Part shown: in pieces, positions 18,724-23,227 of the stretch | Layout of the letters: each line of letters begins with the position of its first letter | Numbering within the stretch: the first letter of the stretch is position 1 | Assembly: GCA_943789365.1 (NCBI GenBank) | Contig: CALSTV010000001.1 | Location: forward strand, 2,418,001-2,482,000 | Direction of reading: 5' to 3' | Length of the DNA stretch: 64,000 bases | DNA from: an uncultured Flavobacteriaceae bacterium | GTDB taxonomy: Bacteria; Bacteroidota; Bacteroidia; Flavobacteriales; Flavobacteriaceae | Made by a program: the position numbers and the translations under genes | Notes under the pieces: generated by a model | The model's input: the letters and a program-made list of their open reading frames with translations, nothing else | Told to the model about the DNA's origin: nothing | Databases searched by the model: none

Positions 18724-21144
18724 ATGATGTTTTTCCGAAATAAAATGTTTGTAGTATTGTCGTCACTTTTTGTTGTTTTGTTCGCAGTTGTCGCGCTTTT
18801 TGTAAACCATCATAAACCTGTATATAAGGGAATACTTCCTGTTTTTGGTATAGGGAATAATGTATCTGTATATTTCGATGCAATTGGGGTGCCTCATATT
18901 GAAGCGCAAACTCAGAAGGACGTATATACTGCTTTGGGGTATGTGCATGCACAAGACCGATTATGGCAAATGGAATTGTTGCGTCGTATTGCAGCAGGTC
19001 GTCTCTCGGAAATGTTCGGTGAAAAAACCATTGAGGTTGATAAATTCTTTAAAAGTTTAGGCATTGAAGCCGCGGCTCAAAAAACAATGCAAGAACTGGA
19101 TACAACAACTGCACCTTACGTGATGACGCAGGCGTACCTAGCCGGAATAAATCAATTTATAAAAGAAGGGGCAACACCCGTTGAGTTTTATTTGTTAGGT
19201 CTGGAAAAGGAAACGTATCAATTAAAAGATGTGTACAATGTTTTTGGTTATATGGCATTTAGTTTTGCTATGGCTCATAAAACAGACCCTATGCTTTCCT
19301 CTTTAAAATCAAAATTGGGCGTTGAATATCTCAGGGATTTACCCGTTGAAATTGACAGCCTGACAACTTCGATTATTGGGAATTCAAAATCATCAAAACA
19401 AACAGCAATCACGGCATCCATCAATCGAGTTTTAAAGTTGTTGCCAGCACCTATGTTAGTAGGTTCCAACGCCTGGGTCGTGGGGCCAAAAAAGACGGCA
19501 CATGGGAAAGTGATTTTTGAAAACGATCCGCATATTGGATTTGCACAGCCCGCGGTTTGGTATCAGGCACATTTAAAAACGCCCAATTTTGAAAGTTATG
19601 GGTTTCATTTAGGGCTAACACCATTCCCTATGTTAGCACATAATAGAGACTATGCATATGGGATCACTATGTTTGAAAACGACGATATAGATTTCTATCA
19701 AGAAAAACAAGCACCAGATAGTTCTTCGCACTATGTTTATAAAGGGCAGGAGCTTCCGTATAAAACTTCAAAACATACTATTCATGTGAAGGATGATGTG
19801 TCAGTGGATTTTGAAGTAAAAGAAACTATTCACGGTCCAATCGTAAACGATGTTATATCTGAAATTGGAACTCAAAACCCAGTTTCCATGTATTGGGTGT
19901 ATACGCAAGAGCCAAATAAATTACTAAAGGCATCCTATGGAATGTCACATGCAGTTTCGATGGAAGATTTTGAGAAAACGGTAAGTCTTATCCATGCACC
20001 AGGATTGAATATGATGTATGGTGACACCGTAGGAAATGTTGCTTGGTGGGCTGCTGGAAAACTGGTTGAACACAGTAACAGCGTGAATCCGAAATTTATA
20101 TTAAATGGTGAAGATGGCGAAGACGATCAATTGAATACAATTGATTTTTCTGAAAACCCGCACGCCATTAATCCAAAGAGTGGGTTTGTATATTCGGCGA
20201 ACAACCAATCTTTTGCAATAATTGAAAAAGAAGGACTGAAACAGAAGAAAGGTTATCATGGTTATTATTTGCCTGAAGACAGAGGACGGAGAATTGTAGA
20301 ATTATTAACGCCCAGTTCCAAAGTGACCAAAGAAGCTATGATGGAGATGACTTTAGATGTTACATCGAGTACTGCTTTGGAGTTTGTAAGTCATTTTCCG
20401 TTGGAAGAACTTGCGAAATCTTCATCTGAGAATGTTGCACAGGCGGTTGCGTATTTACAAAATTGGAATGGAGATTTTATGGTATCGTCTGTGGCGGCAA
20501 CCATCTATATGAAATTGATTTATGTGTATTTGGAAGCTACATTGAAAGATGAAATGGGAAGTGAACTTTTTAATCAGTTTTTAAATACACATATTCAAAA
20601 AAGAACCATCGGTCATTTGATAGGAAATGAGAATTCGCTTTGGTGGGATGATATCACAACTTCGGGCGTTAAAGAATCAAGATCCGAAGTGCTTACAACT
20701 GCTTTTTCTAATACCATAAGCGATTTGGAAAATCAATTAGGGTTGGATATGACAACTTGGAAATGGGGGCGTGTTCATACGGTAGAACATAAACATCCGA
20801 TTGGTGAAGTTGCGCTTTTTCGTTCTTTTCTAAATGTTGGACCCTTTGAAACGAATGGGGGGAATGAAGTGCTAAATAACTTGCAATATGATATCGATTC
20901 GACCGGTGTTTATAAGGTGAAATCGGGTCCGTCTACGCGTCGTGTCATCGATTTTTCGGATATAGAAAACAGTAAAGGAATTATTCCTACCGGGCAATCA
21001 GGGAATCCGTTTAGCAAGCATTATAAAGACCAATCAGATGCCTATTTGAAAGGGAAATTCTTTACAATGTTGTTAGATTTTGATGAGATTAAAAAATCCA
21101 ACGATACGTTGGTCCTTACTCCCGTGGCAAGCCAAACCTACTAG
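18724..21144 (+). CDS. Penicillin acylase-family (Ntn) amidohydrolase
   Basis: 806 residues with an N-terminal hydrophobic signal/anchor (~8-28). Shows the alpha-chain motif GVPHIEAQTQKDVYTALGYVHAQDRLWQMELLRR, the autocatalytic Ser248 (LVGSNAWVVGPKKTA) that becomes the beta-chain N-terminal nucleophile, and the C-terminal part PFETNGGNEVLNN...GPSTRRVIDFSD...GQSGNPFSKHY. Family members hydrolyse amides such as beta-lactam side chains or acyl-homoserine lactones; the substrate here is unknown. Export is likely. The last codons and stop lie inside a 40-bp palindrome that may terminate transcription. Confidence 0.92.
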   Translation: MMFFRNKMFVVLSSLFVVLFAVVALFVNHHKPVYKGILPVFGIGNNVSVYFDAIGVPHIEAQTQKDVYTALGYVHAQDRLWQMELLRRIAAGRLSEMFGEKTIEVDKFFKSLGIEAAAQKTMQELDTTTAPYVMTQAYLAGINQFIKEGATPVEFYLLGLEKETYQLKDVYNVFGYMAFSFAMAHKTDPMLSSLKSKLGVEYLRDLPVEIDSLTTSIIGNSKSSKQTAITASINRVLKLLPAPMLVGSNAWVVGPKKTAHGKVIFENDPHIGFAQPAVWYQAHLKTPNFESYGFHLGLTPFPMLAHNRDYAYGITMFENDDIDFYQEKQAPDSSSHYVYKGQELPYKTSKHTIHVKDDVSVDFEVKETIHGPIVNDVISEIGTQNPVSMYWVYTQEPNKLLKASYGMSHAVSMEDFEKTVSLIHAPGLNMMYGDTVGNVAWWAAGKLVEHSNSVNPKFILNGEDGEDDQLNTIDFSENPHAINPKSGFVYSANNQSFAIIEKEGLKQKKGYHGYYLPEDRGRRIVELLTPSSKVTKEAMMEMTLDVTSSTALEFVSHFPLEELAKSSSENVAQAVAYLQNWNGDFMVSSVAATIYMKLIYVYLEATLKDEMGSELFNQFLNTHIQKRTIGHLIGNENSLWWDDITTSGVKESRSEVLTTAFSNTISDLENQLGLDMTTWKWGRVHTVEHKHPIGEVALFRSFLNVGPFETNGGNEVLNNLQYDIDSTGVYKVKSGPSTRRVIDFSDIENSKGIIPTGQSGNPFSKHYKDQSDAYLKGKFFTMLLDFDEIKKSNDTLVLTPVASQTY

Positions 21145-21169
21145 GTCTTAAGACCTAGTAGGTTTGGCT
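21130..21169. repeat. Perfect 40-bp palindrome, probable bidirectional terminator
   Basis: AGCCAAACCTACTAGGTCTT followed by its exact reverse complement, no loop. It overlaps the acylase stop codon (21142-21144) and lies 19 bp from the convergent cysM stop. No T-run, so termination is inferred; it may be a member of a dispersed palindrome family. Confidence 0.85.
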
Positions 21170-21188: not shown

Positions 21189-22076
21189 TTACTCGAATAA
21201 ATCTGATGAAAGGTACCGATCGCCCCGGTCGCAAATAATAGCAACAACGACTCCTGATTCTAATGAATTCGCAATTTTTACAGCTGTAGCAACGGAGCCT
21301 CCGCTGCTCATTCCAGCAAAGATTCCTTCTTCATTTGCTAAACGTTTTGTCATGGCTCTTGCTTCTGTTTCGCTAACCTCAAGAACGCGATCTACTCTTT
21401 TGGCGTCATATATTTTAGGTAAATATTCTGCAGGCCATTTTCTAATTCCTGGGATTTTAGATCCATCACTTGGGTGAGCACCTATGATTTGAATATCCGG
21501 ATTCTGTTCTTTTAAGTATCGAGAGGTTCCCATAATAGTACCGGTAGTTCCCATGGCAGATACAAAATGTGTAACACTTCCTTTAGTGTCTCTCCATATC
21601 TCAGGTCCTGTAGTTTTATAATGTGCTCTCCAGTTGTCTTTATTTGCAAATTGATTCAGCATTATATAGCCACCTTCAGCCACTTTTTTATCTGCATAAT
21701 CTCGCGACCCAATAATTCCTTCAGCGGCAGGCGTTAGCACAACCTTTGCGCCATAAGCTCTCATCGTTTGCGTTCTTTCTTTAGTAGAATTTTCAGGTAA
21801 TACTAGTTCAATTTTGATTCCTAAAATTTGTGCTATCATAGCTAGCGCAATACCTGTGTTTCCACTTGTAGCTTCAATTAGAATGTCATCTTTTTTAATT
21901 ACTCCTTTTTCAAGAGCAGATGAAATCATATTGTAAGCAGCTCTATCCTTTACACTACCGCCAGGATTATTCCCTTCTAGCTTTAATAGAAGTTGAACGT
22001 TTTTATTTTTTACTAAATTCTGACTTATTACTAAGGGAGTATTTCCTATTAAATCAACAAGTTTTTTAGGCTTCAT
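21189..22076 (-). CDS. cysM: Cysteine synthase (O-acetylserine sulfhydrylase, CysM type)
   Basis: 295 residues. PLP lysine K43 in NNPGGSVKDRAAYN, the substrate loop TSGNTGIALA (~69-78), GTTGTIMG and the C-terminal AGMSSGGSVATA. Length and N-terminal IGNTPLV fit the CysM/CysK family; the shorter length favours CysM. Makes L-cysteine from O-acetylserine and sulfide in the cytosol. Directly follows cysE (17-bp gap), so both cysteine-specific steps form one operon behind the Cys-rich leader. Confidence 0.93.
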   Translation of the reverse strand: MKPKKLVDLIGNTPLVISQNLVKNKNVQLLLKLEGNNPGGSVKDRAAYNMISSALEKGVIKKDDILIEATSGNTGIALAMIAQILGIKIELVLPENSTKERTQTMRAYGAKVVLTPAAEGIIGSRDYADKKVAEGGYIMLNQFANKDNWRAHYKTTGPEIWRDTKGSVTHFVSAMGTTGTIMGTSRYLKEQNPDIQIIGAHPSDGSKIPGIRKWPAEYLPKIYDAKRVDRVLEVSETEARAMTKRLANEEGIFAGMSSGGSVATAVKIANSLESGVVVAIICDRGDRYLSSDLFE

Positions 22077-22093
22077 GGTATGAAATTAATGAA

Positions 22094-22891
22094 TTAACGG
22101 TCTTCTTTTTCTTTTATTTTTACATCAGTAGTAGTGGTGTTTAAAACTATTGAGTTTTCAGGTGTTGAGCGCGTAACCCACGAGTTACCGCCAACAATAC
22201 TGTTTTTACCAATAGTAGTTTCACCACCAAGAATAGTTGCATTTGCATAGATGCATACATGTTCTTCTACGGTAGGATGTCTTTTTTCATTTTTCATGTC
22301 TTTGCTAACGCTCAATGCACCTAATGTAACTCCTTGGTATATTTTTACATATTTTTCGATTACCGTTGTTTCTCCAATAACGATTCCAGTGGCGTGATCG
22401 ATAAAAAATGGAGAAGCAATACTTGCGCCGGCATGAATATCGGTTCCTGTGATTCTATGTGCATATTCACTCATTAACCTTGAAAATAACAACATGTCTA
22501 GCTTGTATAGTTCATGACTCAATCGGTAAATCGCTATGGCATAAAAACCAGGATACGCTAGGTATACCTCATCAATATTGTTCGAAGCCGGGTCGTTTTC
22601 CAATATGAAATTAGCATCTTGGTTTAATTTTTCTAAGACCTCTGGGAGCTTTGCAACGAATTTTTCCCAAACAGAATCGCATAAGTCTTCAGGTTTATTG
22701 CAAGCAATTACAGAAATGTCTTTAAAAAGTATTTCCAATTCGTTGATGCTTTCTTCTAGGTTCGCATTGGTGTCGAACAGGGTGTAAAATAACTTTTCAG
22801 TAAAGGCTTCAGTTTTTGTTTTGATACCGTAATTGATAGAGGTATGGTTTTTTAGTAAACCAATATTTTTGATAATCAGATCTTTTGTCAT
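22094..22891 (-). CDS. cysE: Serine O-acetyltransferase
   Basis: 265 residues. N-terminal helical domain (~1-140), then left-handed beta-helix hexapeptide repeats with the catalytic region TDIHAGASIASPFFIDHATGIVIGETTVIE and GVTLGALSV...RHPTVEEHVCIYANATILGGETTIGKNSIVGGNSWV. Converts serine and acetyl-CoA to O-acetylserine, the feedback-controlled first step of cysteine synthesis. First structural gene of the operon; it starts 80 bp after the stop of the Cys-codon leader ORF, with a hairpin in between. Confidence 0.94.
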   Translation of the reverse strand: MTKDLIIKNIGLLKNHTSINYGIKTKTEAFTEKLFYTLFDTNANLEESINELEILFKDISVIACNKPEDLCDSVWEKFVAKLPEVLEKLNQDANFILENDPASNNIDEVYLAYPGFYAIAIYRLSHELYKLDMLLFSRLMSEYAHRITGTDIHAGASIASPFFIDHATGIVIGETTVIEKYVKIYQGVTLGALSVSKDMKNEKRHPTVEEHVCIYANATILGGETTIGKNSIVGGNSWVTRSTPENSIVLNTTTTDVKIKEKEDR

Positions 22892-22915
22892 GATTATAGT
22901 GTATTGAGTGTTAAA

Positions 22916-22949
22916 TTGAAAAGTAAGCCTACGCTATAGCTTCGGCTTA
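22916..22949 (-). terminator. Candidate attenuator hairpin before cysE
   Basis: On the reverse strand TAAGCC (22944-22949) pairs with GGCTTA (22924-22929) around a GC-TATA-GC inner stem, followed by ACTTTTC. A competing pairing is possible: CCTAC (22962-22966 on the + strand as GTAGG), just after the leader stop, with GTAGG (22928-22932), part of this stem. Weak U-tract, so it may act partially. Confidence 0.5.
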
Positions 22950-22971
22950 TAAATAATAAAAGTAGGTATTT

Positions 22972-23049
22972 TTAGAAACAGCAACAACAATTGCACAAAG
23001 AATATTGTGCAGTATGTAGAAAGGAGTGTTGTTGGTTTTTTAAAAACAT
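22972..23049 (-). CDS. Cysteine-rich leader peptide of the cysE-cysM operon
   Basis: 25-codon ORF (ATG at 23047-23049, TAA at 22972-22974). It begins MFLKNQQHSF and ends CNCCCCF: five Cys in the last seven residues. It starts 23 bp downstream of an exact TATATTTG -7 box and ends 80 bp before cysE. A 7-bp hairpin (TGCACAA/TTGTGCA, 22992-23011) overlaps the first Cys codon. Cys runs in front of cysteine-synthesis genes fit a ribosome-stalling attenuator: scarce Cys-tRNA stalls the ribosome, freeing the antiterminator pairing. Inferred; I know of no description of this leader in flavobacteria. Confidence 0.75.
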   Translation of the reverse strand: MFLKNQQHSFLHTAQYSLCNCCCCF

Positions 23050-23072
23050 TTTGTCGTTCTTTATTAGGTTTA

Positions 23073-23080
23073 CAAATATA
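23073..23080 (-). promoter_or_regulatory. -7 box of the cys leader-cysE-cysM operon
   Basis: Reverse-strand TATATTTG, exact TAnnTTTG match, placing transcription start about 18 nt before the leader ATG. No good TTG element seen at -33. Confidence 0.6.
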
Positions 23081-23193
23081 GTCAAGTATTTTTTAATTTT
23101 CTCATAGATTTTCGTTTTGTGCAAATTGTAAAAATAAGTAAATGATGAATAGTCAGTTATTACACTATCTATAATTTCTGTCTATGACAATCA

Positions 23194-23227
23194 AAAAGCC
23201 CCTTCATATCACTAAGAAGGGGCTTTT
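23194..23227. terminator. Terminator downstream of leuA
   Basis: AAAAGCCCCTTC, 10-nt loop, GAAGGGGCTTTT: a 12-bp stem with T-runs in both directions, 18 bp past the leuA stop. Confidence 0.9.

Follow-up and report, generated by a model that had tools for sequence, protein, structure and literature searches.

The cysE and cysM genes in this 64,000-nucleotide stretch of flavobacterial DNA (the window) are preceded by a short ORF that ends in a run of Cys codons, and we put the probability that ribosome stalling in this leader tunes cysE-cysM, with no conserved intrinsic terminator involved, at about 0.68. The ORF lies on the minus strand (22972-23049) and, read from its ATG start, encodes MFLKNQQHSFLHTAQYSLCNCCCCF in 25 codons followed by TAA. 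As originally predicted, five of its last seven residues are Cys (CNCCCCF), the codon tract being TGC AAT TGT TGT TGC TGT (22978-22995). There is a TATATTTG box on the same strand (23073-23080) which ends 23 nt upstream of the leader ATG, the distance given in that prediction, and which matches TAnnTTTG, the flavobacterial sigma-A -7 consensus stated for F. psychrophilum at -12 to -5 (PMC9723704). This box is likely to be the leader promoter, in which case transcription would start near 23068, approximately 19 nt upstream of the ATG; reading by eye finds no TTG about 20 nt upstream of the box. The spacer between the leader stop and the cysE ATG is 80 nt (22892-22971, minus strand) and cysM follows cysE, both as had been described. 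According to NCBIfam profiles, cysE (22094-22891, minus strand) encodes a 265 aa cysE-type serine O-acetyltransferase (EpsC-like) and cysM (21189-22076, minus strand) a 295 aa cysteine synthase B. The score of CysM is well clear of the NCBIfam cut-offs; that of CysE barely reaches the cut-off of NF041874 (serine O-acetyltransferase EpsC; 150.2 vs 150) and is under that of TIGR01172 (cysE; 160.4 vs 210.65).

Such an ORF rarely arises by chance in sequence of this composition. When the region upstream of cysE in the window was shuffled 20 000 times with dinucleotide frequencies retained, no shuffle had an ATG ORF with at least four Cys among its last eight residues (the real ORF has five), 15 had at least three and 283 had at least two.

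In total, 219 cysE loci were examined, counting twice some genes that occur in two collections. A family-wide search supplied 30 of them, and scanning genome contigs supplied another 80, the best of 227 relatives. A search of Flavobacterium, in which 160 of 398 genomes matched, added 29 new loci, and 80 further regions were taken from its list, towards the lower ranks and away from the crowded F. johnsoniae group. The Flavobacterium sample omits about 50 of the 160 matching genomes. The other family cysE members that were looked at have about 55-62% identity, and the 26 loci in this range (L005-L030) were set aside from the main set; two initial scans found no such ORF in them, and L028 has one unrelated Cys cluster. 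Removal of duplicates by their last 150 nt left 161 distinct loci. A leader was scored where an ATG ORF had 21-27 codons and its last eight included at least two Cys.

Conservation of the ORF and of its Cys run among close relatives had been set beforehand as one test of the original prediction, and both are kept: the Cys-tailed ORF precedes cysE in 20 of the 161 loci, which belong to the window's genus and to Flavobacterium, and in all six genomes of the window's genus. At least three Cys are found in 19/161 real loci vs 1/9660 dinucleotide shuffles and at least two in 20/161 vs 47/9660; the 161 loci are kin to one another, so these counts are not independent trials. A tree of the cysE proteins requires nine changes of the leader label over the 161 rows; over the 37 group-labelled rows eight are required, three of them forced by well supported branches (4/500 shuffles did as well). 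The conservation and the counts against shuffled sequence indicate that the leader ORF is not a product of chance and is under selection.

The selection appears to bear on the Cys codons. Each of the 20 leaders has two to six Cys in its last eight codons (at least three in 19, at least four in 11 and at least five in 5), and all 76 Cys codons (50 TGT, 26 TGC) are within this tail. Counting back from the stop, Cys is found at codons -5, -4, -3 and -2 in 19, 15, 17 and 16 leaders, respectively. Mean pairwise amino-acid identity is 0.70 at codons -5 to -2 vs 0.16 at codons -18 to -9. Since the Cys codons have been kept while the rest of the peptide has drifted, the leader probably reports cysteine supply. 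The position of the ORF is also constant, with the leader stop 46-52 nt upstream of cysE in 18/20 loci (the exceptions are L068, 58 nt, and the window, 80 nt). The leader is dispensable, because 141 of the 161 relatives do not have it, and two loci look like recently decayed leaders. These (L216 and L226) have the long promoter without an intact ORF, and their cysE groups with that of L076, which has an intact leader (SH-aLRT 99); in L216 the Cys frame still ends NYCCCF-stop but has no ATG, and in L226 the frame also lacks an ATG and continues past the Cys codons.

The presence of the leader goes along with the position of the promoter box. There is a TAnnTTTG box 154-189 nt upstream of cysE in 19/20 leader loci (the exception is L171), and eight of the 141 loci without the ORF have such a box 135-195 nt upstream. 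A TACTTTT box 31-60 nt upstream of cysE shows the opposite distribution, being found in 2/20 leader loci vs 125/141 loci without the ORF. The leaderless loci were classed as B (125 loci with a TTACTTTT or CTACTTTT box 38-58 nt upstream of cysE) or C (nine loci with a TAnnTTTG box 60-95 nt away); of those remaining, five have the long promoter but no intact ORF and two are of other kinds. The class B loci (for example L034, L035 and L225) have a strongly conserved CCTTACTTTTA-like box about 42 nt upstream of cysE. This near box reads TACTTTTA in comparison with TAnnTTTG, with exact TACTTTTG in L241 and L262, and we infer that it is likely to be a downstream promoter because seven of the eight consensus bases match. 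After correction for phylogeny, the association of the ORF with the promoter and with the start-codon repeat described below comes down to three supported independent pairs, a number at which significance is unreachable; for promoter and repeat alike, on average 1.9 of these pairs agree, none opposes and 1.1 show no difference.

There is an inverted repeat, ATAATCA...TGATTAT, across the cysE start codon (22872-22897, minus strand), which is a candidate hairpin of about -4 kcal/mol. In leader loci it takes the form ATAATC-ATGACAAAAGATCT-GATTAT or begins with GTAATC. All six stem pairs are present in 19/20 leader loci and in all five of the loci that have the long promoter without an intact ORF; elsewhere they are present in 0/9 class C and 22/125 class B loci. 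In L198 the ATG is one codon further in and both arms are retained at the same spacing. Codon usage in cysE was compared at codons whose amino acid is conserved in at least 90% of rows. Among 175 such codons in the 20 leader rows, eight are always written with a single codon, and these are codons 2-6, 9, 28 and 116. In class B, which is the larger set (118/125 rows usable), none of 193 conserved codons is single. Drawing 20 class B rows at random 200 times gave on average 9.4 single codons per set; codons 2, 4, 5 and 6 were never among them, and codon 3 was single in 44% of the sets. Codon 5 is CTG; elsewhere in the cysE genes that have a leader, 44 of 469 Leu codons are CTG. Nucleotide-level selection at the cysE start codon is well supported by this sequence comparison. 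The start region is predicted to fold with -3.2 to -6.5 kcal/mol in leader loci. We infer no more than that the repeat may act as an RNA hairpin, because there is no covariation and the fold is weak; with so little variation in the stem arms of leader loci, covariation does not separate an RNA hairpin from a DNA site.

The original prediction placed a switch of the his/trp type in the spacer, with the TAAGCC/GGCTTA hairpin as terminator, CCTAC/GTAGG as antiterminator and the position of the ribosome choosing between them. The leader on which this depends is real and conserved, with a promoter box upstream, and the hairpin is also there (22924-22949, minus strand), at -9.3 kcal/mol and followed by CTTTTC; the window spacer folded alone gives -9.9 kcal/mol (z -2.0). 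However, the hairpin is specific to the window species. It is missing from the other 19 leader loci, whose spacers (46-58 nt) fold alone with 0.0 to -0.9 kcal/mol, and the six genomes of the window's genus together contain a single exact copy of the motif. The hairpin explains most of the extra length of the window spacer, which without its 26 nt would be 54 nt, close to that of the other loci. There is no conserved intrinsic terminator between the leader and cysE among the 20 leader loci. In the window itself the U tract is short, and the two competing segments are present (CCTAC, 22962-22966; GTAGG, 22928-22932) but their pairing reaches -4.1 kcal/mol at best vs -9.3 for the hairpin and would be too weak to displace it. 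The predicted fold was the same for four positions of the ribosome (the stop and the first, second and last Cys codons), so the switch that the prediction drew from ribosome position is not borne out. What stands of the earlier interpretation is a Cys-codon leader in front of cysE-cysM; classical attenuation is improbable, even for the window species. It is about as improbable that the Cys codons are incidental to a DNA element, the TTGTTG-rich -33 region of a downstream TACTTTT promoter, with the ORF itself meaningless. TTTCTTT and TCTAAAAA-CACCTTACTTTTA are found at the same place in leaderless class B loci, so part of the leader ORF overlaps an old DNA element, and the window species has a TACTTTT-type box 36 nt upstream of cysE. 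Against this, 18/20 leader loci do not have the box in the scored stretch (that of the window is just outside it), the class B loci have the box but no Cys run, and the start codon, the open frame and the identity of the Cys residues are kept while TGT and TGC interchange.

Two further explanations were considered. The start-codon repeat could be a DNA operator at which a repressor exerts the true control by cysteine, with the leader secondary. The repeat is palindromic and nearly invariant in leader loci, and its stem persists in the 22 class B loci noted above, as an operator might. The exact pattern is found once per genome in all six genomes of the genus, and only at cysE, so there is no sign of a repressor regulon; moreover, loci whose promoter box is about 150 nt upstream retain the repeat, which is mostly eroded in loci with a near box. 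We consider an operator very unlikely. The leader could also be a plain enhancer of translation that feeds ribosomes to cysE, and reinitiation after leader ORFs has indeed been proposed to increase translation downstream (PMC4833913). That proposal, as set out in the same source, needs short distances (a peak at 11-14 bp in Bacteroidetes), in contrast with the 46-80 nt seen here, and it leaves the selection for Cys in front of cysteine genes unexplained, which makes it highly implausible.

Regulation by ribosome stalling in the Cys-codon leader is the reading that we prefer, and it could work as follows. When charged Cys-tRNA is sufficient the ribosome would reach the UAA and depart, leaving the spacer bare and the cysE start partly closed; cysE would then be translated poorly, or Rho would stop transcription, or both. 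When Cys-tRNA is short the ribosome would stall at the very end of the leader, immediately upstream of the spacer, and would keep the mRNA productive by blocking Rho or decay or by aiding initiation, so that more CysE and CysM are made. The output could be Rho loading on the bare spacer or access to the cysE start codon; either fits. There is a rho gene in the window's genome (PF07497, E 8.6e-35). The spacers of leader loci have 23.3% C and 3.9% G, and the 50 nt immediately upstream of cysE in class B have 20.6% C and 3.6% G; because the leaderless class B loci are equally G-poor, this composition is no specific sign of Rho. With a stalled ribosome the predicted openness of the start hairpin changes by at most 0.05 in 19/20 loci and falls in L185, and no fold joins the Cys tract to the start hairpin among the 20 loci. 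Stalling at the first Cys codon is predicted to take the mean unpaired fraction of the cysE initiation region from 0.68 to 0.71 (p 0.053). The gain is above 0.1 in 4/20 loci (L002, L003, L033 and L211), three of them from the window's genus; for the window's own initiation region no change is predicted.

Two RNA structures were considered as parts of such a mechanism and set aside. Hiding of the cysE initiation region by the Cys tract is not supported in general, as the mean unpaired fraction is 0.68 with real tails vs 0.66 with shuffled tails, a difference that runs opposite to sequestration (Wilcoxon p 0.008); L211 alone is clearly more paired there (z -7.0). Duplexes between the tail and the initiation region have -7.0 kcal/mol within a locus, -6.8 across species and -5.6 with shuffled tails. 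A long helix in which the Cys tract pairs with the 5' part of the leader is strong in a few loci (L076 and L220), and is weak and not general: its energy is -13.3 kcal/mol within a locus vs -11.6 across loci (p 0.014), and p is below 0.05 in 8/20 loci against tail shuffles and in 5/20 against shuffles of the 5' part. In folds of longer context some spacers (for example those of L033 and L211) are predicted to pair with the leader end, without a shared pattern.

This type of cysE (E at most 1e-108) is found in 2/91 genera sampled in the order, in 6/6 genomes of the window's genus and in the matching 160/398 Flavobacterium genomes. Flavicella is the source of the nearest named cysE genes (89%, 88% and 87%) among the best 80 of 227 relatives, and on this sequence evidence the window's host is Flavicella-like. 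cysM is directly downstream of cysE in 95/95 loci long enough to tell. The restriction of this cysE to two of 91 genera, together with the constant presence of cysM, suggests that cysE-cysM may have moved horizontally between Flavicella and Flavobacterium, leader included. A wider proposal is that Bacteroidota have a two-part cysteine switch without a terminator, composed of a Cys-tailed leader and a start-codon hairpin and working on mRNAs without a Shine-Dalgarno sequence, that this cassette travelled together with cysE-cysM between the two genera, and that it was lost when promoters shifted downstream. We offer this tentatively, as it is possible but, taken as a whole, rather doubtful.

Leaders with Cys runs are already known in Actinobacteria, and the leader in Bacteroidota is a variant of this known kind. 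In 2005 such leaders were predicted upstream of actinobacterial cys operons and cbs, without terminators and with Rho suggested (PMC1262725). The leader described here is like those in being a short ORF with a Cys run by its stop, in front of cysteine genes and with no conserved terminator; compared with what that paper describes, it differs in the phylum, in the gene order cysE-cysM, in the near-constant spacer of 46-52 nt and in the inverted repeat at the start codon. In mycobacteria, polycysteine short ORFs that are leaderless are reported to respond to cysteine (Canestrari et al. 2020, as cited in PMC9031893 and PMC13236596). According to the citing review those ORFs attenuate through the cysteine-dependent speed of ribosomes at contiguous Cys codons, to which the stalling proposed here is a likeness; for the leader in the window the promoter box predicts a 5' UTR of about 19 nt. 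The uORFC-8-2 motif upstream of cysS in Rhodobacterales also has tandem Cys codons in a uORF, and ribosome-mediated attenuation has been proposed for it (PMC8632094). That motif, as described there, has two stems and a terminator U run, whereas 19/20 spacers here have no stem of their own, and the gene downstream is a different one. In F. psychrophilum, which is of the same family, attenuation of amino-acid operons by leader peptides has been inferred in general terms, with no cysteine operon named in the main-text section concerned (PMC9723704). The actinobacterial study names the Rho-dependent tna attenuation of E. coli as a parallel (PMC1262725). At the flavobacterial locus, as at tna, a ribosome stalled at the leader end could shield a Rho site past the stop. 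TnaC senses free tryptophan via its nascent chain; here, by contrast, stalling is assumed to follow from a lack of charged tRNA-Cys. Our search of the literature, with subscription papers and supplements outside its scope, found no Cys leader reported for Bacteroidota, where amino-acid leader peptides seem little studied. The comparative record is clean, with Cys codons kept amid drift of the peptide, absences that track promoter position and a co-conserved element at the start codon, and the locus offers a compact test of gene control by a stalled ribosome without a conserved terminator.

When the six genomes of the genus were scanned at the loci of PF01507 and PF00291 matches, the leader was found only at cysE. 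Short Cys-tailed ORFs at L265, L266, L268, L269, L272 and L273 are within the larger PF01507 gene, and the scan of sulfur genes gave further ones at L278, L285, L282, L287 and L292. No Rfam family of cis-regulatory RNA scored above its gathering score in the window, where three tRNAs were the only matches. A genome-wide family of leaders ending in CCCF-stop was considered and rejected. The pattern TGYTGYTGYTTYTAA is found in 200/298 Flavobacteriaceae genomes, well above the backwards control. Thirty loci were drawn as examples and 28 gave matches (L131 and L151 gave no row), and for each of the 28 one of the two strands has a stop-to-stop frame of 100 codons or more that encloses the match. 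Coding sequence apparently explains the excess better than leaders do, which makes it a trap for pattern-based searches for leader peptides. The pattern TGYTGYTGYNNNTAA has 13 matches in the window's genome vs 11 in the control. In the same genome SYCCCQ-stop (L122, C1:3442699) ends 39 nt before the gene of a protein that, judged by eye, looks like a SulP sulfate permease; it is probably there by chance, because its frame, which lacks an ATG, opens only eight codons upstream.

Finally, there are two repeats in the window on either side of the leader and its genes. At approximately 23193-23227, downstream of a 2-isopropylmalate synthase gene, there is a G+C-rich hairpin with a T run (AAAAGCCCCTTC...GAAGGGGCTTTTT), which looks like an intrinsic terminator and would restrict read-through into the leader. 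Directly downstream of cysM there is a perfect 40 nt inverted repeat (21130-21169; AGCCAAACCTACTAGGTCTT and its complement) which overlaps the 3' end of a convergent ORF of 806 aa (18724-21144) and is perhaps a bidirectional terminator.
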